From: Aliiroseovarius sp.
GTDB lineage: Bacteria; Pseudomonadota; Alphaproteobacteria; Rhodobacterales; Rhodobacteraceae
Assembly (NCBI RefSeq): GCF_030148435.1
Contig: NZ_JASBTN010000040.1
Location: 40,347 to 104,346 of the forward strand
Length of the DNA stretch: 64,000 bases
Direction: 5' to 3'
Shown here: piece after piece, positions 14,661 to 26,261 of the stretch
Layout: each line of letters begins with the position of its first letter
Numbering within the stretch: position 1 is the stretch's first letter
Position numbers and translations under genes: made by a program
The notes under the pieces: model-generated
Databases searched by the model: none
The model's input: the letters and a program-made list of their open reading frames with translations, nothing else
Told to the model about the DNA's origin: nothing

Positions 14661-14764
14661 CCCGACCTAGCCTGCGCTGGAAACTTTCTGGAATTCCCCC
14701 GTTGCCCGCCTGTCTTGTGCTGCGTAAGCTCAAGCCGACAAGATCTATTCCGGGGAGAGGTTTA

Positions 14765-15232
14765 ATGGATTTCAAGACTGTTCTTGCGGCAGGCGCGCTG
14801 GCGTTCGTGGCGACGGCGGCAAGTGCACAGAACGTGACGGCAAGCAATCCGCAGTCGATCATGGACTACTATTTCAACGAAGGGGTGCCCGCGCGCCTTG
14901 GTCGTGACACCGTTGATGATCCGATGATCACCGTGCGCCAGTCCGGCAGTGAATATACGATCTTCTTTTACGATTGCACGGGGGGGGCCGATTGCGGATC
15001 GATCCAGTTCTATTCGGGCTATAACGCCGATGGGTCCGTGTCGATGCAGATGGTAAACCAATGGAACACCGACCGCCGCTACTCGCGCGCCTATGTGCTG
15101 GATGACGGGGTGACGAAGCTGGAATACGACGTCTACATGGGTGGCCAGGGCATGGATGCTGTGGACTTCGCGTCGGTCGTGGCGCTCTGGGTCGAAGAGT
15201 TCGAGGGCTTTGAGGCGACCATCGGCTGGTAA
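14765..15232 (+). CDS. Secreted YbjN-domain protein
   Basis: The 155-residue product has a Sec signal peptide cleaved after ASAQ (about residue 22). A YbjN-like domain follows: SIMDYYFNEGVPARLGRD, YTIFFYDCTGG.CGSIQFYSGY, and a C-terminal VALWVEEFEGFEATIGW. YbjN-type folds resemble type III secretion chaperones and serve varied, poorly known roles; the function here is unknown. A pair of cysteines in the central strand could form a disulfide. ATG 14765 follows GGGGAGAGG. A strong intrinsic terminator follows the gene. Confidence 0.8.
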   Translation: MDFKTVLAAGALAFVATAASAQNVTASNPQSIMDYYFNEGVPARLGRDTVDDPMITVRQSGSEYTIFFYDCTGGADCGSIQFYSGYNADGSVSMQMVNQWNTDRRYSRAYVLDDGVTKLEYDVYMGGQGMDAVDFASVVALWVEEFEGFEATIGW

Positions 15233-15256
15233 GCCACGCCTGAGACAGGAAACAGC

Positions 15257-15292
15257 AAACGCCGCGGGTTCTCCGCGGCGTTTCTTTTTTTT
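15257..15292 (+). terminator. Rho-independent terminator after the YbjN-like gene
   Basis: An 11-bp perfect stem AAACGCCGCGG / CCGCGGCGTTT with a 5-nt loop is followed by C and eight T residues. It ends plus-strand transcription 25 bases after the stop codon. Confidence 0.95.
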
Positions 15293-15312
15293 GGCGCCCG
15301 GGCTCGCGGCTC

Positions 15313-16494
15313 CTACAGCGCGTTCAGAAGCGCCGGTGTCGGCCAGGCATCCGCGGGCATTCCCAGCCGCTTCTGTTCCGCCTGCACGGCGGCGCGGGTT
15401 TTGGCGCCCAGGATACCGTCCACCTTGCCCACGTCATGACCACGCGCCTTCAGTTTCTGTTGAAGCTGTTTCATCCGCGCCCCAGACAGTCCCGCTTCCG
15501 GGTTGCGCGGGTCGAACACCGGCGCGCCTTCCAGACGGGTGGCGAAATAGGCTGCCGTGGTCACGTAGACGAAGCTCTTGTTCCACTCGAAATAGACCCG
15601 GTAGTTCGGATAGGCGATGAAGGCCGGACCCTTGCGTCCCTGGGGCAGCAGGATCGAGGCCTCAAGGGTTTCCGGCCCGAGGTTGCCATTGCGCGCCGTG
15701 ACGCCCAGCCTGGCCCATTCGCCGACCTTCATCGAGGTATCGAGCCCGGTCCTGGACCAGTCCAGATCGGCTGGCACCACAACCTCCTGCAGCCAGGGTT
15801 CGCCCGCGCGCCAGCCCAGCCGTTTCAGCATATTGGCCCCGGAGAGCAGCGCATCGGCAGGCGAGCGGCGCAGGTCCACCACCCCGTCGCCATCGCCGTC
15901 CACACCCGCCTCGATAATGTCGCCGGGCAGCATCTGGACCATGCCGATCTCGCCCGCCCAGGCGCCTGTCGAAGTGGCCGGGTTGAAATCGCCCCGTTCG
16001 AACAGCTCCAACGCGGCAAAGACCTGCGGCTGGAACAGCTCCGGTCGGCGGCAGTCGTGGCTCAAGGTCATCAGCGAATTCAGCGTATTGAAATTGCCCT
16101 GAAAGCCGCCGTAATCCGTCTCGAAGGCCCAGAAAGCTGTCAGCACCCCGCGCGAGACGCCGTATTGCCGTTCCATCCGATCAAAGATCGCGGCGTGTTT
16201 TTGCAGGTTGCGGCGGCCGTGATCCATGCGATTCTGGCTGATCAACTGACGTGAGAACTCGGTAAAGGTCTTGGCAAAAATCCCCTGGGCGCGGTCCGCC
16301 TTGATCGTGGCCGGGTCATGGCGAACGCCGGCAAAGAAACGCTGCGCGACCCCCCGGTCATGGCCCTTGCGCGCGGCGGCATCGGTCATCTTGGCAACGA
16401 AATTCGAAAAACTGCCGCCACATTGTACGCTGACCTGCGCGCTGGCGGCGCCAGCCACGAAGAGAAGCGCGGCGGCGCTGAGAATGATACGCAT
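15313..16494 (-). CDS. MltB-family lytic murein transglycosylase with peptidoglycan-binding domain
   Basis: The 393-residue product has a signal peptide (cut after AGAASAQ), an SLT_2/MltB catalytic domain and a C-terminal PG_binding_1 domain. Catalytic Glu125 lies in FWAFETDYGG. The PG_binding_1 domain, about 335-390, contains LQQKLKARGHDVGKVDGILGAKTRAAVQ. It would cleave peptidoglycan glycan strands in the periplasm; the absence of a lipobox suggests a soluble form. It is the second lytic transglycosylase in the window, of a different family from the Slt at 2748. It lies convergent to the YbjN-like gene, with a terminator between them. Confidence 0.9.
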   Translation of the reverse strand: MRIILSAAALLFVAGAASAQVSVQCGGSFSNFVAKMTDAAARKGHDRGVAQRFFAGVRHDPATIKADRAQGIFAKTFTEFSRQLISQNRMDHGRRNLQKHAAIFDRMERQYGVSRGVLTAFWAFETDYGGFQGNFNTLNSLMTLSHDCRRPELFQPQVFAALELFERGDFNPATSTGAWAGEIGMVQMLPGDIIEAGVDGDGDGVVDLRRSPADALLSGANMLKRLGWRAGEPWLQEVVVPADLDWSRTGLDTSMKVGEWARLGVTARNGNLGPETLEASILLPQGRKGPAFIAYPNYRVYFEWNKSFVYVTTAAYFATRLEGAPVFDPRNPEAGLSGARMKQLQQKLKARGHDVGKVDGILGAKTRAAVQAEQKRLGMPADAWPTPALLNAL

Positions 16495-16542
16495 GAAACC
16501 CTCTCTGAAAGACGTTGAAGTCAGGATAAAGGGTTTGGCTCC

Positions 16543-17445
16543 TCAGACAACCGCGATGATCAGTGCACCCAGCGCGACCACCGCGAAGAGCAGGGCCCAG
16601 GTGCGCCACAACGCAGACGCCGCGCGGTCGACATCTTCATGGGTCAGCATGCGTTGCCCGCCGATATTGACCCAGGGATACTGCCGAAGCTCGCCGTCAT
16701 AGGTGCGCGGGCCGGACAGGGCGACGCCCAGAACCTGCGCCATCGCGGCCTCGGGCCAGCCCGCGTTCGGGCTGCGGTGCCTGGGTGCGTCCGCCCGCAC
16801 CGCGCGCCAGGCGTCGGGGCGAAAATGGGCGGCCACGATCAGAACTGCGCTCAGCCGCGCGGGAATCCAGTTCAGCAGATCATCGAACCGAGCCGCCGCC
16901 TTGCCGAAGCGCTCGTATTTCGCCGTGCGGTAGCCGATCATGCTGTCCGCCGTGTTCGTCACCTTGTAGATCATGAGCCCCGGCAAGCCCCCGATCAGAA
17001 ACCAGAACACCGGCGCGATGACCCCGTCCGACAGGTTCTCGGCCGCGCTTTCGATCGCGCCGCGGGCCACTGCCGAACGGTCCATGCCTGCGGTATCACG
17101 TCCGACGATCATGGCCACGTTTCGCCGACCCTCGGCAAGCGAGAACCGCAGCCCCGTGGCCACTGCGCGCACGTGCTCGACCAGTCTTTTCTGCGCGATC
17201 AGAATCGCACCGATCAGGACCTCCGCCACCGGGCCAAATGCACTCAGCAACAGGCCCAGCATCCCCGCCGCAACGACCAGAACGGCAAGAACTGCGCCGC
17301 CTGCCAACAGGCTGCCATGGTTGAACCGTTTGTCGAGCCAGCCGATTGCCCGCCCCATCAGCACCGCCGGATGCGGCACCCGCCGCCAGATCCAGTCCGG
17401 TTCGCCCATGAGGGCATCAAGCAGCATCGCAATCACAATCGTCAC
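16543..17445 (-). CDS. cobD: Adenosylcobinamide-phosphate synthase CobD (CbiB)
   Basis: The 300-residue integral membrane protein attaches the aminopropanol (phosphate) arm to adenosylcobyric acid, late in adenosylcobalamin synthesis. Visible family segments are WRRVPHPAVLMGRAIGWLD, RDTAGMDRSAVARGAIESAAENLSDGVIAP, and GLMIYKVTNTADSMIGYRT. The start is GTG 17445, overlapping the TGA of cobC (GTGA). Together with cobC this is a dedicated side-chain module: CobC makes the aminopropanol phosphate and CobD uses it. Confidence 0.95.
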   Translation of the reverse strand: MTIVIAMLLDALMGEPDWIWRRVPHPAVLMGRAIGWLDKRFNHGSLLAGGAVLAVLVVAAGMLGLLLSAFGPVAEVLIGAILIAQKRLVEHVRAVATGLRFSLAEGRRNVAMIVGRDTAGMDRSAVARGAIESAAENLSDGVIAPVFWFLIGGLPGLMIYKVTNTADSMIGYRTAKYERFGKAAARFDDLLNWIPARLSAVLIVAAHFRPDAWRAVRADAPRHRSPNAGWPEAAMAQVLGVALSGPRTYDGELRQYPWVNIGGQRMLTHEDVDRAASALWRTWALLFAVVALGALIIAVV

Positions 17446-18368
17446 AGGGCACGCTCCAACTGATCCCAACCATTCGGTCCGGGCAGGCCCAGCCGTATCC
17501 AAGTTTTCGAGTAGGGAAAGACGCGGGTCAAGACATGGGCTCGGGCCAGGCGGCAAAACCAGGTTTCGGCACTGTCGACCTCATAGAGGCGAAAAAGCGT
17601 CGTGCCCCCCGCCAGCCGGGCCCCTCTCGCGGTGAGCAAGCCGTCCATGCGGGCCGTATCGCGGGTCAAACGGGCGCGGGTTGCTTCGGCCCAGGCCAGA
17701 TCCTCCAAGGCCCGCGCGCCGATCTCCAGCGCCGGACCGGAGACCTGCCAGGGCCCCAGCGCCTCGCGCAGCTTTTCGATCAGGGCCGGATTGCCGATGG
17801 CGAAGCCCAGCCGCAACCCTGCGAGACCCCAGAACTTGCCAAAACTCTTCAGGATTAGCGTGCCGGGCGCGGCGGCGCGGGCGATATGCGTGGCCTCGGG
17901 GGTCACGTCGCAGAAGCTCTCGTCGATCACCATCAAGGGAGCGTCCAGCCCCTCCTGCCACAGCCGCCCGTCCGGGTTGTTCGGGTGCACCAGCACGCGG
18001 GCCGTTCCACTGTCGCCGATCTGCCAGCCCGATCCGGTGAACGCGGCCGCATGTTCGTTATAGGTGGGCGCGGGAATGTCCACCACGCCGGGCGCGGCCA
18101 GCGTCGGCACACGGGCGATGATCGCCGAGGCGCCGGGCGCGGCCAGAACGGCCGCTTGGTCCGGGATCTTCCAGAAGTCGCGCGCCGCCTGTTCCAGCCG
18201 GTCGAAGGCGTTCCGGTCGGGAAGACGCGTCCAGGCTTCGGGCGCCGTTTCGCCGACCGGGTAGGGCAGGGGATTGATGCCGGTGGACAGGTCCAACCAG
18301 TCGTTTGCCCCCCCTCCGAACCGGGCTTTCGCGGCGTCCAGACCGCCGCCGTGATCGCGCTGTGCCAT
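17442..18368 (-). CDS. cobC: Threonine-phosphate decarboxylase CobC
   Basis: This PLP enzyme of the class I/II aminotransferase fold decarboxylates L-threonine phosphate to (R)-1-aminopropan-2-yl phosphate for the cobalamin nucleotide-loop arm. The 308-residue product shows WLDLSTGINPLPYP at the N-terminus, VHPNNPDGRLW, and the PLP-lysine segment LKSFGKFWGLAGLRLGF. The ATG at 18368 (MAQRDHGGGLDAA) matches the family; the 80-codon extension in the track is not real. It is the upstream member of the cobC-cobD operon. A long leader of about 400 bases precedes it (see the next entry). Confidence 0.92.
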   Translation of the reverse strand: MAQRDHGGGLDAAKARFGGGANDWLDLSTGINPLPYPVGETAPEAWTRLPDRNAFDRLEQAARDFWKIPDQAAVLAAPGASAIIARVPTLAAPGVVDIPAPTYNEHAAAFTGSGWQIGDSGTARVLVHPNNPDGRLWQEGLDAPLMVIDESFCDVTPEATHIARAAAPGTLILKSFGKFWGLAGLRLGFAIGNPALIEKLREALGPWQVSGPALEIGARALEDLAWAEATRARLTRDTARMDGLLTARGARLAGGTTLFRLYEVDSAETWFCRLARAHVLTRVFPYSKTWIRLGLPGPNGWDQLERAL

Positions 18369-18769
18369 CCTGTGCTTCCCCCTTATTCCCCGGGCGATTC
18401 TATCGGCCGATTCCCCGGTCCAACCGCTGGCGGAAGTGTTCCGAGGGAACACTTCCCGGTTGAAATTAACCTTTGTTAACGGCAATTGCCCCCCGATACG
18501 CGGGAAGAACAACCTTTGGTCAGGAACCGCAGGTCCCCCGGGGCGAATTTTGCAAGTTGCGACAGGCTTCCTGACGCTATCGACAGGCCCGCCGGGCCAG
18601 ATCGCCAATTCCCGCCCCGGGTTTCAACCCGAATTGCAACGCTTTGTCCATTCCTTTCGCCCTGCCTGACACGCTATGGGCGAGGCCACCCGGGTTTAAC
18701 CAGTTGGAAGGAAACAAATGGAATTTCCGGCGGATTTATGCGACAGTTTAATGAAATGGAGAGGTGGCA
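18369..18769. other. 401-base gap between cobC and the receiver-like gene
   Basis: No convincing gene is seen in either strand. The gap holds the divergent promoters, a perfect 11-bp hairpin at 18432-18456, a TTAAC-cttt-GTTAA repeat at about 18466-18479, the palindrome GGCAATTGCC at 18481, and on the minus strand CAGGAAGCCTG at 18563-18573. The last sequence faintly recalls the 3' box of cobalamin riboswitches, which would suit the leader of cobC. The rest of the riboswitch consensus is not clear by eye. Confidence 0.5.
18432..18456. repeat. Perfect inverted repeat (11-bp arms, 3-nt loop)
   Basis: GGAAGTGTTCC-GAG-GGAACACTTCC lies 64 to 88 bases upstream of cobC. There is no T-run on either side, so a plain intrinsic terminator is unlikely. 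It could be an operator or an RNA hairpin in the cobC leader. Confidence 0.7.
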
Positions 18770-19147
18770 ATGCGCGTTCTGATTGTTGAAAGCAATCAAG
18801 ACCTTGGCGGGATCTGGAAACAGCATCTCGAACGTCAGGACGCAGAAGTGCGGCTGATGGATGGCGAGGAAAGCGCGGTCCGCTACCTGACCGAAAGCGC
18901 CGTCGACGTGATTGTGCTGAACCTTGATCTGGCCCGGGGCGGCGCGCTGACCGTGGCCGATTTCGCCGCCTACCGCCACCCTGACGCCAAGGTGATCTTC
19001 GTGACCGCTTCCAGCTTCTTCTCGGACGGCTCGATCTTTGCGCATTCTGCAAACGCCTGTGCCTGTCTCTCGGCGCAAACGGCGCCGGAAGATCTGGCAA
19101 CCCTGGTGAGCTACCACGGCCAGGCCGGCACCGCTGCGGCCGAATAG
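18770..19147 (+). CDS. Degenerate (pseudo-)receiver domain protein
   Basis: The 125-residue product is a stand-alone CheY-like fold: MRVLIVESNQDLGGIWKQHLE, VDVIVLNLDLARGG, and AKVIFVTASS. Key receiver residues are changed. The acidic pair is Glu7-Ser8, the phospho-acceptor position is Asn51 where Asp is expected, and the conserved Lys after the fifth strand is absent. It is therefore unlikely to be phosphorylated and may signal by binding alone. ATG 18770 follows GGAGAGG at good spacing and is preferred to GTG 18764. No kinase is adjacent. Confidence 0.75.
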   Translation: MRVLIVESNQDLGGIWKQHLERQDAEVRLMDGEESAVRYLTESAVDVIVLNLDLARGGALTVADFAAYRHPDAKVIFVTASSFFSDGSIFAHSANACACLSAQTAPEDLATLVSYHGQAGTAAAE

Positions 19148-19234
19148 GCCCCTGTTTCCGGTAGTGGATTCCGCATCGGCTGCTCTGCTTCTTTTCACAT
19201 TCCCCTTGGTCAAATCCCGCGCTAGGGTCGCGCC

Positions 19235-19879
19235 ATGACACAGACGAATTCCAGGGCCCTTCCCAGACCCGAGGCGGTGATCTTCGACATCGGCAACGTG
19301 CTGATCACCTGGCAGCCCGAGCAACATTACGACCGCTGGATCGGCGAGGAACGCCGCCGCGAAATGTTCGCGACCGTGGACCTGCATCACATGAACGAGC
19401 TGGTCGACCGCGGTGGAGATTTTCGCGAGACGATCTATGGCACCGCCGCCGAGTATCCGGAATTCGAACAGGAAATCCGCTGGTGGCATGACCGCTGGCT
19501 GGACCTGGCCACACCGGTAATCGACCTGTCCGTTCGCACGCTGCGGGTGCTCAGGTCCAAGGGCGTGCCGGTCTTTGTACTGTCGAATTTCGGCATCGGC
19601 TCCTTTGCGCTCTCCGAGAGCCGCGAGGACTTTCTGAGCGAATTCGACCGTCGGTACATCTCGGGCCATATGGGGTGCACCAAACCCTCGGCCCGCATCT
19701 ATGAAATGGTCGAACGAGACTGCGGCGTCGCACCTGAGCGCCTGCTGTTTGTCGACGACCGCGCCGAAAACATCGCCGCGGCCGAGGCGCGCGGCTGGCA
19801 GGGGCATATCTTTACCTCGCCCGAGGGCTGGGTGGCGCGCCTGATCATCGCCGGATTGCTGGAGGAGGGCGAGCCGTGA
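19235..19879 (+). CDS. HAD-superfamily hydrolase (HAD-IA, YihX-like)
   Basis: The 214-residue product shows the four HAD motifs: VIFDIGNVL (nucleophile Asp in motif I), VFVLSNFG (motif II), the KPSARIYEMV lysine (motif III), and LLFVDDRAENI (motif IV). The alpha-helical cap contains the YDRWIGEERRREMF segment. Such enzymes are small-molecule phosphatases or dehalogenases; the substrate is unknown. It is the first of four genes joined by 4-nt or shorter overlaps (19235-22516), which suggests a shared pathway. Confidence 0.85.
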   Translation: MTQTNSRALPRPEAVIFDIGNVLITWQPEQHYDRWIGEERRREMFATVDLHHMNELVDRGGDFRETIYGTAAEYPEFEQEIRWWHDRWLDLATPVIDLSVRTLRVLRSKGVPVFVLSNFGIGSFALSESREDFLSEFDRRYISGHMGCTKPSARIYEMVERDCGVAPERLLFVDDRAENIAAAEARGWQGHIFTSPEGWVARLIIAGLLEEGEP

Positions 19880-20790
19880 GCATCGAAATCGTACCGTTCG
19901 AAGCCGAAGAACACCTGAACTGGTCCACCCTGGGCGACGCCTTTCTGGCCGGACACAAGCTGCCCAGGGCCGAGGTCGGCGATACATTCCTGTATCGTGG
20001 TGAGGACACGATGCTGTCCCGTGCGGCCTGGATCGACGGGCTTGGGTCGGCGGTAAAGACCGCCAATATCGTTCCGGGCAATGTGGCGCGGGGCCTGGGG
20101 TCCATCCAGGGGGCGGTGAACCTTTACAATGATGTGACCGGCGAACTGGAGGCGCTGGTCGATTTCCTGCTTGTGACCAAGTGGAAAACCGCCGGTGACA
20201 GTGTTCTGGGGGCCCGCCTGCTGGCCCGCCCCGACAGCGAGGTTATCCTGATCGTCGGCGCGGGCACCGTCGCGCGCGCATTGCGCGAGGCTTATGGTGC
20301 GACCTTCCCCGCTGCCCGCTTCCTGATCTGGAACCGCAGCCCCGCCGGGGCCGAGGCGATAGCGGCCGACTTCCCCGATACCGAGGTCGCACCCGATCTG
20401 GAGGCCGCCGTGCGCGTGGCTGACATCGTGACCTCCGCCACCATGACCACCGAACCGATCCTCAAGGGTGAGTGGCTGCGCCCCGGCCAGCACCTCGACC
20501 TGATCGGCGCCTACCGCCCGGACATGCGCGAGGCCGATGACGACGTCCTGAAACGGGCCCGCCTGTTCATGGACAGCCGCGACACGGTGCTTGACCATAT
20601 CGGTGAATTCAAGGACCCGCTGGCGCGCGGGATCATTACCCGCGATGATGTGGCAGGCGATTACTATGACGTGGTGAGCGGAGCTTTTTCTCGCAACCCC
20701 GAGGACATTACGCTGTTCAAGAACGGCGGCGGGGCCCACCTGGACCTGATGACCAGCACCTATATCCTGCAAGCGTGGAGAATGAGATGA
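19876..20790 (+). CDS. Ornithine cyclodeaminase/mu-crystallin family protein
   Basis: The 304-residue product has the OCD/mu-crystallin layout: an N-terminal dimerisation part, a Rossmann NAD(P) domain (VILIVGAGTVARALREAYGATFPAARFLIWNRSP), and a late DLIGAYRPDMREADD segment typical of the family. Members catalyse ornithine cyclodeamination, reduce ketimines, or act as alanine or other amino-acid dehydrogenases. The substrate cannot be chosen from sequence alone. GTG 19876 overlaps the TGA of the HAD gene. The stop overlaps the ATG of the dioxygenase. Confidence 0.85.
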   Translation: MSIEIVPFEAEEHLNWSTLGDAFLAGHKLPRAEVGDTFLYRGEDTMLSRAAWIDGLGSAVKTANIVPGNVARGLGSIQGAVNLYNDVTGELEALVDFLLVTKWKTAGDSVLGARLLARPDSEVILIVGAGTVARALREAYGATFPAARFLIWNRSPAGAEAIAADFPDTEVAPDLEAAVRVADIVTSATMTTEPILKGEWLRPGQHLDLIGAYRPDMREADDDVLKRARLFMDSRDTVLDHIGEFKDPLARGIITRDDVAGDYYDVVSGAFSRNPEDITLFKNGGGAHLDLMTSTYILQAWRMR

Positions 20791-21587
20791 GCGCCCCCAG
20801 GATTACAGATCGGATGATCGAGGACTTCCAGCGCGACGGCGTTGTGATGATCCCCGGCGCGCTGACCGATTGGGTCGAGGTGATGCGCGCGGGTGTCGAG
20901 CGCAACTTGGCCTCGCCGGGAGAATATGCGTCGGAAAACGCAGTGACCGAAGGGCGCTTCTTTGACGACTATGTCAACTGGACCCGGATTCCTGAATACG
21001 AGCACCTGATCCGCGAAAGCCCGGCCGGTGAGATCGCCGCGCGGCTCATGCGCAGCGCGCGCGCGCAGTTTTTCCATGACCACGTGCTGGTGAAGGAGCC
21101 GGGCACGCCGAAACCCACGCCCTGGCATCAGGACGGGCCCTATTATTTCGTCGAGGGCGAGCAGACCGCAAGCTTCTGGATCCCGCTCGATCCGGTTGGC
21201 GAGAATTCGCTGCGCTTCATTGCCGGAAGTCACAAATGGGAGCGCATGGTGCGCCCGGTCAGCTGGGCGGATGACAGTGACTTCTATGACGCCGGGCAGG
21301 ACTGGATTGCGGTGCCGGACCCGGATGCCAACCCCGGTGACATGACGGTGCTGGAATGGCCGATGGAGCCGGGTGACGTGGTGGTTTTCGACTATCGCAC
21401 CGTGCATGGCGCGCGTGGCAACTTTGCCGATACCCGCCGCCGGGCACTGTCTCTGCGCTGGATGGGCGACGACGCGCGATACATCGAGCGCCCCGGCCGC
21501 ACATCGCCGCCCTTCCCGGGCCACGGGATGGAGACCGGCCAGCGCCTGCGCGAGGACTGGTTCCCGGTGCTGTGGAGAGCGGCTTGA
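20787..21587 (+). CDS. Phytanoyl-CoA dioxygenase (PhyH) family protein
   Basis: The 266-residue Fe(II)/2-oxoglutarate-dependent oxygenase fold shows the iron-binding facial triad: WHQDGPYYF (HxD) and the distal VHGAR histidine, with an Arg in RRALSLRW likely to bind 2-oxoglutarate. Bacterial PhyH proteins hydroxylate varied small molecules, including amino acids and ectoine, so the name does not fix the substrate. ATG 20787 overlaps the preceding TGA (ATGA); the four-codon longer start at 20775 is less likely. It is the third gene of the HAD-OCD-PhyH-hydrolase operon. Confidence 0.85.
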   Translation: MSAPRITDRMIEDFQRDGVVMIPGALTDWVEVMRAGVERNLASPGEYASENAVTEGRFFDDYVNWTRIPEYEHLIRESPAGEIAARLMRSARAQFFHDHVLVKEPGTPKPTPWHQDGPYYFVEGEQTASFWIPLDPVGENSLRFIAGSHKWERMVRPVSWADDSDFYDAGQDWIAVPDPDANPGDMTVLEWPMEPGDVVVFDYRTVHGARGNFADTRRRALSLRWMGDDARYIERPGRTSPPFPGHGMETGQRLREDWFPVLWRAA

Positions 21588-22516
21588 TCGGCTATGTTTT
21601 CCTTCTCCTCCTGGCGCTGCTTATCGCCGCTCCCTGGCTGATCGAGCGCACCCGCCGCCCGATGGACGCGGCCGCGCGCCGCGATGCGCCGGGTGAGTTC
21701 GTGACCCTGTCGCGCGGCGTGACCCATTACCAGTGGCACGGCCATGTCGACGGGCCGGTGATCGTGATGGTGCATGGGCTGAGTTCGGCCAGCTGGGTGT
21801 TTTCCGGCCTCTTTCACGGGCTCGGCCTGATGGGATTTCGCATCCTGACCTATGACCTCTACGGGCGGGGATACTCCGACCGTCCCGCCGGGATACAGGA
21901 CAGGGATTTCTTCCTCGGGCAGCTCGAGGAGCTGCTGGCGGCTCTTGGCATTCCCGAGGACAGGGAGATTTGCCTGTTCGGCTATTCCATGGGCGGGTCG
22001 ATTTCGACCTGTTTTGCCGCGAAACACCCCGAGCGGGTGGACCGGCTGTTTCTGCTGGCCCCGGCCGGAATGGATTACACGCCCCATCCGCTGCTGAAGC
22101 AGGCGCGCATCTCAGGGCGGTTCGGCACCTGGCTGTGGATGTGCTTTGGCGGGCTGCTTCTGAAGCGTGGCGCGCGGGCGGATGCGGATGGGGCGACGGT
22201 AATCCCCGACCTGCCCGACCGAATTGCAGCCGACCTTCGTACCAGGGGCTACCTGCGGTCGATCCTGTCCAGCGAGCGCCATATGTTGTGCGAAGAATTG
22301 GAGGCGGAACACCGCGAGCTGTCCAGGATGTATGTGGCCGTTGTCTCGATCTGGGGCGCCGAGGATGACGTGATCCCCGCCAGCGCCATCGGCAAGCTGA
22401 CCGTGTGGAATCGCGACGCCTGGAAGCTGGAAGTGCCCGGCGCGGGCCACGGCATTGGCTACACGCACCCGCAGGAGATCATTGCCGCCGTACAGGAAAA
22501 CCTGCGCGAGGTTTGA
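21584..22516 (+). CDS. Alpha/beta hydrolase with N-terminal membrane anchor
   Basis: The 310-residue product begins with a hydrophobic segment (IGYVFLLLLALLIAAPWLI) and continues as an alpha/beta hydrolase. It has the oxyanion-hole VHGLSSASW, nucleophile elbow GYSMGG (Ser), and a late Asp and GAGHGIGY histidine. The N-terminal segment suggests attachment to the inner membrane. Two starts compete: TTG 21584, overlapping the upstream TGA with GGAG about 8 nt before it, and GTG 21572. The TTG fits the overlap pattern of the operon. The substrate is unknown. Confidence 0.8.
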   Translation: MIGYVFLLLLALLIAAPWLIERTRRPMDAAARRDAPGEFVTLSRGVTHYQWHGHVDGPVIVMVHGLSSASWVFSGLFHGLGLMGFRILTYDLYGRGYSDRPAGIQDRDFFLGQLEELLAALGIPEDREICLFGYSMGGSISTCFAAKHPERVDRLFLLAPAGMDYTPHPLLKQARISGRFGTWLWMCFGGLLLKRGARADADGATVIPDLPDRIAADLRTRGYLRSILSSERHMLCEELEAEHRELSRMYVAVVSIWGAEDDVIPASAIGKLTVWNRDAWKLEVPGAGHGIGYTHPQEIIAAVQENLREV

Positions 22517-22587
22517 GGGCGCGCTCCTGCCCCCTTCCCGCGCCTTCGGCTTGTCAGGGGTTGGGCGTGGCTCACTTCGTGAGCCTG

Positions 22588-22646
22588 GAGGGGCGCTGCC
22601 CCTCGGCCTGGCGGCCTCACCCCGGGATATTTTCAGCAAGGAAAAG
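22588..22646 (+). repeat. Intergenic hairpin repeat, copy C
   Basis: GAGGGGC-GCT-GCCCCTC is followed after a short variable stretch by cccgggatattttcagcaaggaaaaga. A second perfect hairpin (GGCTCAC-TTC-GTGAGCC, 22569-22585) directly precedes it. It lies between the convergent hydrolase and 108-residue genes. Confidence 0.75.
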
Positions 22647-22679
22647 AGGGAATGGCGCGGGGTGCGCTGGCCTGTGTGT

Positions 22680-23006
22680 TCAAACCCGTGCCTTCTCCAG
22701 CACCTCCATTTCAACCACGCGGCGCACAAACGGGGCCATGCCCGGCGCACCCGAGGCACGGTCCTTGAGGTGAATGCAGACATCCGGGCGGCGCGCGGCT
22801 ATGACGCCGATCAGATCGCCGCGGATGGTATCGTCCAGCCCGGCGCCGATCACCACCGCGCTGATGCCGGGTTCGGCCTCGAGCTGACGGATCACTTCCT
22901 CGCGGTCGTGGGCGCCGAGCCACTGGATCGGCAGATCCTCGAGCTGGCGCGCCACGTTGCTGATCACGTCCGGCAGGCGCCCGACCAACAGAACAACCGG
23001 TTTCAT
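22680..23006 (-). CDS. Hypothetical protein, possible small Rossmann/receiver-like fold
   Basis: This 108-residue protein is not recognised. It starts KPVVLLVGRLPDVI and has ISAVVIGAGLDDTIRGDLIGVIAARRPDVCIHLKD, an alternating beta/alpha pattern like a receiver or nucleotide-binding fold, but without a phospho-acceptor motif. GGAGG lies 7 nt before ATG 23006, a strong start. It is downstream of the YbaK-like gene on the same strand with a 57-base gap, so the two may share a transcript. Confidence 0.65.
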   Translation of the reverse strand: MKPVVLLVGRLPDVISNVARQLEDLPIQWLGAHDREEVIRQLEAEPGISAVVIGAGLDDTIRGDLIGVIAARRPDVCIHLKDRASGAPGMAPFVRRVVEMEVLEKARV

Positions 23007-23063
23007 TCATATTCCTCCTTCTGGGTTGCCCCGCCGGCAGTCAGGCGGCCGGCGGGGAAAGTG

Positions 23064-23534
23064 TCAGTGCATGCAGCAGAACGAGCCGTGTTTGGCCCGT
23101 TTCATCAAGCGGTCGAAGTCGCGCCCCCGCATCTCGACAAGGGTGCGGTGGTCGCCGCCTTCGAACCAGACTTTGTCGAGCCCGGTAAGGCTGTCATCGA
23201 CCACAGTCGGCACGTCATAGGCCTCGCCGACAGGCGGGGCTGCGCCAAGGTCGCAATCGTCGAAGAGCTCGCGTACTTCCTCTTCTCCGGCGAGTCCCAG
23301 GCGGCGGTGCATCATGTTCTGCAGCGCGTGCAGGTCGACCTGGTGGTTGCTGGGCACGACCGCCAGCATCGGGCCTTCCTCCATGTGGATCAGGACCGAT
23401 TTCGCCAGGTGATCGCCCGGGATATGGGCGGCCTCGGCGCATTCGGCGGTGGTGACGCTGAACGGGTGTTTGAGCGTCGAGTAGGGGATCTCGCGGGCGC
23501 TCAGGTGGTTTTCAAGGCGTGCGGATAAAGCCAT
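23064..23534 (-). CDS. YbaK/EbsC-family aminoacyl-tRNA deacylase-like protein
   Basis: The 156-residue product is a single YbaK/ProRS-editing-like domain: YSTLKHPFSVTTAECAEAAHIPGDHLAKSVLIH, including the conserved lysine of the editing pocket, then VPSNHQVDL and the GEAYDVPTVVDDSL region. Such proteins hydrolyse mischarged aminoacyl-tRNA. Unusually it ends SFCCMH, a short Cys/Met/His tail that could bind metal. The start at 23534 (MALSARLENHL) is chosen over the 26-codon extension. The target tRNA is not predictable. Confidence 0.8.
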   Translation of the reverse strand: MALSARLENHLSAREIPYSTLKHPFSVTTAECAEAAHIPGDHLAKSVLIHMEEGPMLAVVPSNHQVDLHALQNMMHRRLGLAGEEEVRELFDDCDLGAAPPVGEAYDVPTVVDDSLTGLDKVWFEGGDHRTLVEMRGRDFDRLMKRAKHGSFCCMH

Positions 23535-23708
23535 GGTGTCCTCCGTATTCGCGAAGGCGCCCAAGGTGTGTCCAGTGTCTGGCCTCTGTCTGTGCTGCGT
23601 CGATCCTGTCACCGGGCGCCCGGGGCGCCGTCAGTGCTGTGCCTCCAGTGTGCCCCATATGGGGTGAGTCGGGCAAATTGGGGGGAATTGCCCCCCTTAA
23701 AACAACAA

Positions 23709-23733
23709 ACCCCCGAGGCGGGGCCGCGGGGGT
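23709..23733 (-). terminator. Intrinsic terminator of rpsU
   Basis: On the minus strand ACCCCCG and CGGGGGT flank an 11-nt loop and are followed by TTTGTTGTTTT. It lies about 45 bases after the rpsU stop. Further hairpins (GGGGGG-aattg-CCCCCC at 23680-23696; CCCCATATGGGG at 23653-23664) lie beyond it, in the leader of the YbaK-like gene. Confidence 0.75.
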
Positions 23734-23778
23734 CGTCGTGGCGTTCGGGGTGAACCCCTCTGCCGGATGCGTCAGACC

Positions 23779-23985
23779 TCAGAGGAGGCCTTCACGCTGC
23801 GCTTTCTTCCGAGCCAGCTTGCGCTGACGGCGAATGGCTTCCGCCTTTTCGCGCGCTTTCTTCTCGGAGGGCTTCTCGAAATGCTGCCGAAGCTTCATCT
23901 CGCGGAAGACACCTTCACGCTGAAGTTTCTTCTTCAGCGCACGAAGCGCCTGGTCTACGTTGTTATCGCGAACCGAAACCTGCAT
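23779..23985 (-). CDS. rpsU: 30S ribosomal protein S21
   Basis: This 68-residue, highly basic protein ([34 protein letters not shown]) is S21 of the small ribosomal subunit, which sits near the anti-Shine-Dalgarno region of 16S rRNA. The C-terminal half is Lys/Arg rich ([22 protein letters not shown]), as usual. It is monocistronic, divergent from the COQ9-family gene, and followed by a GC-rich terminator. Confidence 0.97.
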
Positions 23986-24095
23986 GTGGTTGTCACCACC
24001 TTTCTAAGTTGGAGTTTGCAGAATTGCAGGAGCGCCTCCCTTAGCAGGCCTTTGTCCGCTTGTCCAGCTTTGCGCCCTGTGCGACAGTCGCCCCC

Positions 24096-24776
24096 ATGAC
24101 GACAGCACAAGACCTTCTGAACGCCGCCCTTCTGCATGTGCCCTTCGACGGCTGGACCGCGGCATGTTTCGACGCGGCTGCCGCCGATTGCGGGCTCAGC
24201 GCAGACGAGGCGCGGGGCATGTATCCTCGCGGCGCGGTGGATATGGCGCTGGCCTTTCACAGGCAGGGCGACGCGGAGATGGTGGCGCGGCTGAAGGCGG
24301 CCGACCTGGGCGAAATGCGCTTTCGCGACCGGATTGCCGCCGGGGTGCGCATGCGCCTCGAACTGGCCGACAGGGAGGTGGTGCGCCGCGGCATGACGCT
24401 CTTTGCCCTGCCGCAGCATGCAAGCGACGGGGCGGCGGCGCTGTGGGGCACCAGTGACCTGATCTGGACCACGCTGGGCGACAGTTCACGCGACGTGAAC
24501 TGGTACACCAAGCGGGCGACGTTGTCGGCGGTCTACAGTTCCACCGTGCTCTACTGGTTGGGCGATGACAGCGAGGGCCATGCCGCGACCTGGGCCTTTC
24601 TGGACCGGCGTATCGACAATGTAATGAGCTTCGAGAAATTCAAGGCCAAGGCGCGCGACAGCAAGCTTGCCCGGGCCTTCATGGCGGGGCCGGGCAAGAT
24701 CCTCGAGACGATCAAGGCCCCCGGCAGCCCACGCCCGAATTACCCCGGACACTGGGAACAGAAGGAAAACCAATGA
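24096..24776 (+). CDS. COQ9-family ubiquinone biosynthesis protein
   Basis: The 226-residue product is a COQ9-type lipid-binding protein with the TetR-like helical fold: LLNAALLHVPFDGWTAACFDAAAADCGLS, GMYPRGAVDMALAFHRQGD, and a C-terminal WAFLDRRIDNVMSFEKFKAK. COQ9 presents polyprenylated intermediates to COQ7-type hydroxylases. The start at 24096 (MTTAQDLL) is preferred over the 12-codon extension. The quinone oxidoreductase ATG overlaps its TGA, so the two are coupled. Confidence 0.88.
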   Translation: MTTAQDLLNAALLHVPFDGWTAACFDAAAADCGLSADEARGMYPRGAVDMALAFHRQGDAEMVARLKAADLGEMRFRDRIAAGVRMRLELADREVVRRGMTLFALPQHASDGAAALWGTSDLIWTTLGDSSRDVNWYTKRATLSAVYSSTVLYWLGDDSEGHAATWAFLDRRIDNVMSFEKFKAKARDSKLARAFMAGPGKILETIKAPGSPRPNYPGHWEQKENQ

Positions 24777-25762
24777 CCCTGCCCACAACCATGCGTGCCG
24801 TCGAGATTTCCGAACCCGGCGGCCCCGAGGTTCTGCGCCCGATCAAGGCGCCCGTGCCCGTGCCCGGTCCCGGCGACATCCTGATCAAGGTGGCGTTTGC
24901 CGGGGTGAACCGCCCCGACGCGCTGCAACGCGCGGGCAGCTACGCGCCGCCGCCGACGGCAAGCCCGCTGCCGGGGCTCGAAGCCTCGGGCGAGGTGGTC
25001 GCTTTGGGCGAGGGCGTGACGCAGTGGAGCCTTGGCGACAAGGTCTGTGCGCTGCTGCCCGGCGGCGGTTACGCGGAATATGTCACCACACCTGCCGCCC
25101 ACGCGCTGCGGGTGCCCGAGGGCATGGGGATGAAACAAGCCGCCTGCCTGCCCGAGACCTTCTTCACCGTCTGGTCCAACGTCTTCATGCGCGGCGGGCT
25201 GCAGGCGGGCGAACGCTTTCTTGTGCATGGCGGCTCGTCCGGCATCGGCACCACCGCGATCCAGCTTGCCAATGCTTTCGGCGCACGGGTCTTCACCACC
25301 GCGGGCTCGGAAGAGAAGTGCCAGGTCTGCCGCGATCTGGGGGCCGAGCGTGCGATCAACTACCGCGAGGAGGATTTCGTCGCGGTGATGAAGCCCGAAG
25401 GCGGGCCGAACCTGGTGCTCGATATGGTCGGCGGCGACTATATTGCACGCAATATCAAGAGCCTGGCGCCGGACGGCCGGATGGTGCACATCGCCTTCCT
25501 TTCGGGCCCCAAGGCCGAGGTCAACTTCGCCCTGATCATGGCCAAGCGCCTGACCGTGACCGGGTCCACCCTGCGCCCGCAGTCGGACCTGGCCAAGGCG
25601 CGTATCGCCGAAGAACTGGCCGAGAAAGTCTGGCCTCTGCTGGATGCGGGCCGGGTGGCACCGGTGATGGACCAGGTCTTTGCCCTCGACGACGCCGCCA
25701 AGGCCCATGCCCGGATGGAGACCAGCCAGCATATCGGCAAGATCGTCCTGCAGGTCGGGTAA
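24773..25762 (+). CDS. Zeta-crystallin-like NAD(P)H:quinone oxidoreductase
   Basis: The 329-residue MDR-superfamily reductase without catalytic zinc has an N-terminal GroES-like domain (MRAVEISEPGGPEVLRPIKAPVPVPGPGDILIKV) and a nucleotide-binding domain (FLVHGGSSGIGTTAIQLANAFGARVFTTAGSEEK). It would use NADPH to reduce quinones or enones. It is translationally coupled to COQ9 (ATGA) and followed four bases later by the PNPOx-like gene. The substrate is inferred from family only. Confidence 0.88.
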   Translation: MTLPTTMRAVEISEPGGPEVLRPIKAPVPVPGPGDILIKVAFAGVNRPDALQRAGSYAPPPTASPLPGLEASGEVVALGEGVTQWSLGDKVCALLPGGGYAEYVTTPAAHALRVPEGMGMKQAACLPETFFTVWSNVFMRGGLQAGERFLVHGGSSGIGTTAIQLANAFGARVFTTAGSEEKCQVCRDLGAERAINYREEDFVAVMKPEGGPNLVLDMVGGDYIARNIKSLAPDGRMVHIAFLSGPKAEVNFALIMAKRLTVTGSTLRPQSDLAKARIAEELAEKVWPLLDAGRVAPVMDQVFALDDAAKAHARMETSQHIGKIVLQVG

Positions 25763-25766
25763 GGGG

Positions 25767-26261
25767 ATGTCCGACAAGGACACAGGCCCGGTCCGCCCCA
25801 CCGACGACGAGGCCCGGGCACTGGCCCGCGGCCTGATCGACGGGGCGGGCTTTGCCGCGCTGGGCGTGCTGGACCCCGATACCCGTGCGCCCTTCGTCAC
25901 CCGCATTGCGCTGGCGACGGACCCGGACGGGCATCCGGTCAGCCTGATCTCGGACATCGCTTTTCACAGCAGGGCGCTGAAGGCGAACCCGGCCTGTTCG
26001 TTGCTGGTGGGGGAGCCCGGAGAAAAGGGAAACCCCCTCGTGCACCCGCGCCTGACCCTGACCGCGCGGGCCGAGTTTCCAGAACGCGAAACCAGCCATG
26101 GCGCCCTGCGTGACCACTATCTGACCCGGCACCCCAAGGCGAAACTCTATGTCGATTTCGGTGATTTCCGCTTCGTGAGATTCGCGGTGGAGGCCGGGTT
26201 TCTGAACGGAGGGTTCGGCCAGGCCTTCAGGCTGGCCCCAACCGATATGGGGCTGGGTTAG
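25767..26261 (+). CDS. Pyridoxamine-5'-phosphate-oxidase-like (HugZ-type) flavin protein
   Basis: The 164-residue product is a split-barrel FMN-binding domain: AALGVLDPDTRAPFVTRIALATDPDGHPVSLISDIAFHSRALKANPACSLLVGEP. It resembles HugZ and other haem- or flavin-reductase relatives of PNPOx, but is too short for a two-domain HugZ. True PdxH function is unlikely. ATG 25767 follows AAGGGG and starts four bases after the previous stop. It is the last gene of the COQ9-quinone oxidoreductase operon and convergent with rlmH. Confidence 0.78.
   Translation: MSDKDTGPVRPTDDEARALARGLIDGAGFAALGVLDPDTRAPFVTRIALATDPDGHPVSLISDIAFHSRALKANPACSLLVGEPGEKGNPLVHPRLTLTARAEFPERETSHGALRDHYLTRHPKAKLYVDFGDFRFVRFAVEAGFLNGGFGQAFRLAPTDMGLG

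Follow-up and report, generated by a model that had tools for sequence, protein, structure and literature searches.

A block of four genes in Aliiroseovarius sp. (Rhodobacteraceae), which encode a HAD-IA phosphatase (HAD), a member of the ornithine cyclodeaminase (OCD)/mu-crystallin family, a PhyH-family oxygenase and an alpha/beta hydrolase (ABH), was analyzed in a 64,000-nucleotide stretch of contig NZ_JASBTN010000040.1 (positions 40,347 to 104,346; hereafter “the window”; Table 1). At a probability of roughly 0.6, we favor the reading that this block is part of a modular operon that was assembled piecewise, rather than one dedicated four-step pathway, with a ketimine reductase-type OCD and partners that can be assigned at class level. 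The four genes probably do not form one pathway in which each would be an obligate step: such a pathway is required by no evidence, and is conceivable for the clade that carries PhyH in the operon.

In the proposed history, an ancestral segment of the order (MbfA)-AEC transporter-FghA-(SthA)-YaiI-(DMT)-HAD-OCD-(ABH) would have gained, apparently in a single event, a MysH-like PhyH that was inserted between OCD and ABH, and would mostly have retained it in that clade. In the lineage of the window, HAD-OCD-PhyH-ABH would have been relocated as a unit. OCD would have a salvage role, with NAD(P)H as the reductant that converts cyclic ketimines (delta1-pyrroline-2-carboxylate or delta1-piperideine-2-carboxylate) to L-proline or L-pipecolate, HAD may remove phosphate from a small metabolite, ABH may be a serine hydrolase, attached to the membrane, that cleaves an ester, thioester or lactone, and PhyH may hydroxylate a small amino-acid-like molecule; all of these substrates are putative.

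Linkage of the genes was assessed in 121 Rhodobacteraceae genomes, one per genus, which are not phylogenetically independent. OCD orthologs are near-core (92 of 121 genomes, usually single-copy; 93 if one genome with only weak paralogs is counted). Of the 69 genomes with both HAD and OCD, 64 have the two side by side, HAD and ABH are adjacent in 33 of the 33 genomes that hold both, and ABH adjoins HAD or OCD in 38 of 39. The linkage of HAD, OCD and ABH is tight, although any of the three may be missing. Six genomes have HAD-ABH without OCD, and five have OCD-ABH without an adjacent HAD. The presence of PhyH, by contrast, is independent of OCD across the family, as both occur in 43 genomes versus 44.1 expected (Fisher p=0.68), and are adjacent in 3. 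At 89 OCD loci, the same-strand neighbors are YaiI (64), HAD (62), FghA (59), an AEC transporter (43), ABH (30) and PhyH (3), where the counts of distant neighbors are lower bounds, because 30 of the 89 loci are short (~3.9 kb). Longer stretches share the colinear order MbfA-AEC-FghA-(SthA)-YaiI-(DMT)-HAD-(OCD)-(PhyH)-(ABH), which in many cases is followed by an opposite-strand MFS gene and ZapE (SthA, FghA and ZapE exceed curated score cut-offs; the AEC, EamA/DMT, DUF188/YaiI and rubrerythrin-VIT1 proteins were assigned by Pfam). Two loci (L191, L192) have the slot pattern YaiI-HAD-ABH without OCD, and two others (L189, L190) HAD-OCD-PhyH-ABH; in the window's lineage, the latter block lies between a response-regulator gene and coq9. 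The fghA-yaiI-OCD operon of the Rhodobacter group is comparable: on pORIO5 of Cereibacter azotoformans, an orthologous OCD (63% identical) directly follows AEC-fghA-yaiI, but HAD, PhyH and ABH are missing from that operon, whereas the block in the window has no adjoining fghA or yaiI. Outside Rhodobacteraceae, OCD homologs have mixed neighbors.

The PhyH protein was scanned against 84,980 species genomes, and the best 80 loci were kept. Among these, loci at ~70% identity or above almost all show HAD-OCD-PhyH, many of them with ABH, whereas below this value PhyH is mostly located elsewhere. The order HAD/OCD-PhyH(-ABH) was found in 33 other loci, and the block is common to Aliiroseovarius, Marinosulfonomonas, Pseudohalocynthiibacter, Litoreibacter, Halocynthiibacter, Kandeliimicrobium, Frigidibacter, HTCC2150 and several metagenome-assembled genomes; it is thus not limited to one strain, but recurs in many genera of Rhodobacteraceae, in line with the original prediction. 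The enzyme families are ordinary, and the operon is apparently undescribed: no description of it was found among the open-licence papers searched.

In a PhyH tree of 92 proteins (a quick tree without bootstrap, in which many forks are weak), all 35 operon rows, i.e., the window, the 33 other loci and L091 (a repeat of the L021 genome), fall into one group of 39 rows (support 84, stem 0.48), together with three Amylibacter-type non-operon rows and one contig-edge row. The operon label changes 3 times on this tree, versus 28.1 times in shuffles. This would suit a single entry of PhyH into the operon and one departure in Amylibacter, in which SthA-YaiI-HAD-OCD is kept in the operon and PhyH lies elsewhere. 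Two genomes (those of L030 and L034) keep HAD-PhyH-ABH, with no OCD found at E 1e-20. A divergent LysR gene is present within 500 bp of PhyH in 28 of 50 non-operon rows, compared to 0 of 34 operon rows; non-operon PhyH also has plasmid-borne neighbors (ABC, TRAP, carnitine or ring-hydroxylase genes), and its neighbors indicate no consistent substrate. The genome of the window has a single PhyH of this kind.

The original prediction had taken overlaps of 3–4 bases between the four genes as the strongest sign of a joint pathway. The overlaps themselves are readily read from the start and stop codons, and all of them measure 4 nt: GTGA at 19876 (HAD/OCD), ATGA at 20787 (OCD/PhyH) and TTGA at 21584 (PhyH/ABH; an alternative GTG start of ABH at 21572 would give 314 aa). 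However, gene overlap in itself is ordinary and no strong sign of a joint pathway, because about one third of the same-strand pairs in the window (11 of 33, by an approximate gene call) may overlap by 4 nt or 1 nt, and because the fghA-yaiI pair of the relatives, whose roles are unrelated, overlaps in 32 of 55 cases. A run of three overlaps is less common than a single one. Among relatives, the overlap is kept at 77 of 90 HAD-OCD loci and 31 of 35 OCD-PhyH loci, counts that are biased toward overlaps, since of the possible starts the one closest to the stop was picked. The region yielded no sigma-70-like promoter, and terminator-like sites occur there at no higher frequency than in shuffles. 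The four genes are probably co-expressed, as far as can be inferred, and tend to move together.

Pfam bears out the four enzyme families that had been proposed, and the best supported functional assignment is that of OCD, whose predicted activity is that of a ketimine reductase and not of a cyclodeaminase. The top Foldseek matches of its structure model (predicted local distance difference test, pLDDT, 94.9) are pyrroline-2-carboxylate (Pyr2C) reductase 6t3e, mu-crystallin 4bv9 and piperideine-2-carboxylate (Pip2C) reductase 7rbp. With 6t3e, 7rbp (from Medicago) and CRYM, OCD shares the fold (TM-score 0.83-0.89), the Rossmann GxG, Arg49, Lys61 and the absence of the cyclodeaminase Asp; it differs from them in sequence (24-29% identity), in its own KNGGGAHLD motif and in its location outside a hydroxyproline cluster. 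NADPH-dependent Pyr2C reductases were indeed proven among other members of the OCD superfamily (PMC4113996). At the catalytic-Asp site, the archaeal alanine dehydrogenase 1omo has IGADGPGKQELD and the OCD of the window has IGAYRPDMREAD (Asp to Tyr), and Tyr or Phe occupies this position in 124 of 124 aligned OCD relatives. The catalytic Asp of the GAD motif in the NAD domain is D219 of 1omo and D228 of Pseudomonas OCD; in ornithine cyclodeaminase, an Asp occupies the place equivalent to that of alanine dehydrogenase. Since this residue is missing, OCD was rejected as an ornithine cyclodeaminase or archaeal alanine dehydrogenase proper (against P. putida OCD, it reaches a weak score of 49.6 bits). 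Of the two activities considered originally, imine reduction is retained as a prediction, while cyclodeamination is unlikely. OCD relatives of ~52% identity adjoin genes for proline racemase-family proteins and for a flavin-type N-methylproline demethylase or similar flavoenzyme. The genome also encodes a true ornithine cyclodeaminase on contig C82 (L188; 6011-7102, minus strand; PRK07589, 572 bits vs. a cut-off of 350), which is its only other OCD-family protein.

The partners of OCD can be assigned to classes by their sequence motifs. PhyH is a predicted Fe(II)/2-oxoglutarate oxygenase by its HxD...H triad, its 2-oxoglutarate-binding Arg and its modeled double-stranded beta-helix: H114, D116, H207 and R218 are invariant in 46 aligned homologs, and the fold of the structure model (pLDDT 90.9) matches MysH, SnoK, PhyH and EctD, as well as the proline 3/4-hydroxylase H11 and GriE. 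MysH, a cyanobacterial dioxygenase of palythine biosynthesis, is the nearest solved relative and the top match in sequence and fold, and has a reported role in the formation of palythine (PMC10510106). Triad and Arg are intact in both proteins, but they are only 28-29% identical and PhyH differs by a longer segment after GSHKW. No mysABC(D)-type mycosporine genes were found near PhyH among the genes scanned at 14762-26261, and a mycosporine pathway at the locus was ruled out by these absent neighbors. Identity with the ectoine hydroxylase EctD, and with it an ectoine pathway (NCBIfam ThpD, 11.6 bits vs. a cut-off of 336.5), as well as a phosphonate pathway (family scores or absent neighbors), were likewise rejected. 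HAD exceeds the cut-off of NCBIfam HAD-SF-IA-v3 and, like the alpha-D-glucose-1-phosphate phosphatase YihX of E. coli, is a HAD-IA protein, to which it aligns across the DxGNV motif I (with Gly at +2) and the S/T-N, K and DD motifs; S/T117, N118, K150, D174 and D175 are conserved in 97 of 97 homologs (a pairwise count). However, the two proteins match with a pairwise score of only 39 bits, and the YihX glucose-1-phosphatase itself was rejected for HAD (equivalog PRK09456, 46.8 bits vs. a cut-off of 295). In ABH, the nucleophile elbow GYSMGG (GxSxG) is present, and S135, D261 and H289 are invariant in 20 homologs. Its N-terminus reads as a hydrophobic stretch followed by RTRR, and the orientation deduced from these charges would place the catalytic domain in the cytoplasm.

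It appears unlikely that the four genes make up a pathway devoted to a modified cyclic amino acid, in which OCD would provide L-proline or L-pipecolate from the ketimine, PhyH would hydroxylate it, much as the proline hydroxylase H11 does, and HAD and ABH would strip phosphoryl and acyl groups from the precursor. In its favor, HAD-OCD-PhyH linkage is stable inside the PhyH operon clade, and the fold matches of PhyH include the amino-acid oxygenases H11, GriE and EctD, which, however, are distant (15-19% identity). Moreover, 17 positions differ between operon PhyH and other PhyH, five of which fall into 156-162, just past GSHKW: residues 156, 158, 159, 161 and 162 hardly vary within the operon clade and have other states outside it, and, more broadly, residues 156-164 and 221/225 are near-fixed to new states in this clade. 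By homology, the segment after GSHKW may line the active site. On the other hand, the active-site motifs of OCD are the same with or without PhyH, the two genes are distributed independently across the family, PhyH seems to have arrived late, and OCD is absent from the two genomes that keep PhyH without it. The wider operon, moreover, holds FghA, YaiI, SthA, AEC and MbfA, which are unrelated in function. The joint four-step pathway of the original prediction was therefore not upheld, and no evidence was found for the breakdown of a phosphorylated amide. More doubtful again is a shift in the specificity of PhyH on joining the HAD-OCD-ABH operon, by which the cyclic amino acid or imine of OCD would have become its substrate for hydroxylation.

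Several observations weigh against piecewise assembly around a ketimine reductase. The PhyH label is scattered on the OCD tree (14 changes, at least 5 forced), and therefore repeated loss or cassette transfer has to be assumed. Within the operon clade, PhyH adjoins HAD or OCD in 35 of 38 non-edge rows from many genera, and this stable linkage, together with the joint movement of the Aliiroseovarius-type block, speaks for some functional tie. OCD remains below the cut-off of its best NCBIfam match, PRK06141 (Pyr2C/Pip2C reductase; 239.5 vs. 322 bits), as do relatives in proline-betaine clusters (267-276 bits); it can be said to work like the PRK06141 family without being an equivalog member, which makes the predicted reductase a family-level assignment. 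Finally, 24 of the 36 genomes with a trans-3-hydroxyproline dehydratase over the cut-off hold OCD versus 27.4 expected (hand count), and proline racemase-family genes coincide with OCD in 38 genomes versus 41.1 expected. As OCD is associated with neither, no metabolic source of its substrate has been identified.

The latter counts also bear on the possibility that OCD serves trans-3-hydroxyproline breakdown as its pyrroline-2-carboxylate reductase, with the other genes as bystanders. This would be in keeping with the genome having just one further member of the OCD family, a true ornithine cyclodeaminase, but the dehydratase was ruled out as a partner of OCD by the lack of association with it or its superfamily, two genomes (G003, G036) contain all four genes of the block but lack proline racemase-family genes altogether, and the genome of the window encodes an alternative candidate reductase of the Ldh_2 family, so that this explanation, too, is improbable. 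Two proline racemase-family genes lie side by side on contig C80 of the same genome (111925-113936, inside L187), with no pyrroline-2-carboxylate reductase among the few neighboring ORFs (open reading frames) scanned. Pure accretion, i.e., an operon shared for expression level alone with zero functional link, would explain the single-gene gains and losses and the similarly tight overlaps of FghA, YaiI, SthA, AEC, DMT and MbfA, neighbors of unrelated roles, but is the least probable explanation, given the almost constant adjacency of ABH to HAD or OCD and of HAD to OCD, and the relocation of the block as an intact unit in the window's lineage. A formaldehyde link, in which demethylation by PhyH would feed FghA, was set aside: it would rest on adjacency in the ancestral operon, and FghA is not beside the block in the window.

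The immediate surroundings of the block are listed in Table 1. Several Aliiroseovarius-type relatives have a gene that matches the response-regulator gene in size and place (cluster c22; likened by size and position), and the pair of coq9 and the quinone oxidoreductase-like gene is retained downstream in such relatives.

Table 1. Genes of the four-gene block and its surroundings (positions in the window).
Feature	Position	Strand	Remarks
HAD-IA phosphatase, YihX-like	19235-19879	+	ATG start, 214 aa; Pfam PF00702 (Hydrolase/HAD_2), 43.5 bits
OCD/mu-crystallin family, predicted ketimine reductase	19876-20790	+	GTG start, 304 aa; PF02423 (OCD_Mu_crystall), 143 bits
PhyH-family Fe(II)/2-oxoglutarate oxygenase (predicted), MysH-like	20787-21587	+	ATG start, 266 aa; PF05721, 109 bits
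Alpha/beta hydrolase (ABH), putative N-terminal membrane anchor	21584-22516	+	TTG start, 310 aa; PF00561 (Abhydrolase_1), 76 bits
Stand-alone response-regulator receiver domain	18764-19147		127 aa; 87 bp upstream of block
108-aa ORF	22680-23006	minus	no Pfam match
Aminoacyl-tRNA editing domain gene	23064-23612		adjoins the 108-aa ORF
coq9 and zinc-type quinone oxidoreductase-like gene	24060-25762		downstream of block; 4-nt overlap

The survey serves as a warning that gene overlap does not mean a shared pathway, and the operon map eases the choice of single deletions. OCD is near-core in a major marine bacterial family, and its residues speak against its public name, “ornithine cyclodeaminase”. 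If PhyH did shift its specificity upon joining the operon, a new hydroxylated metabolite of the proline or pipecolate type would be expected in this marine clade of Rhodobacteraceae.
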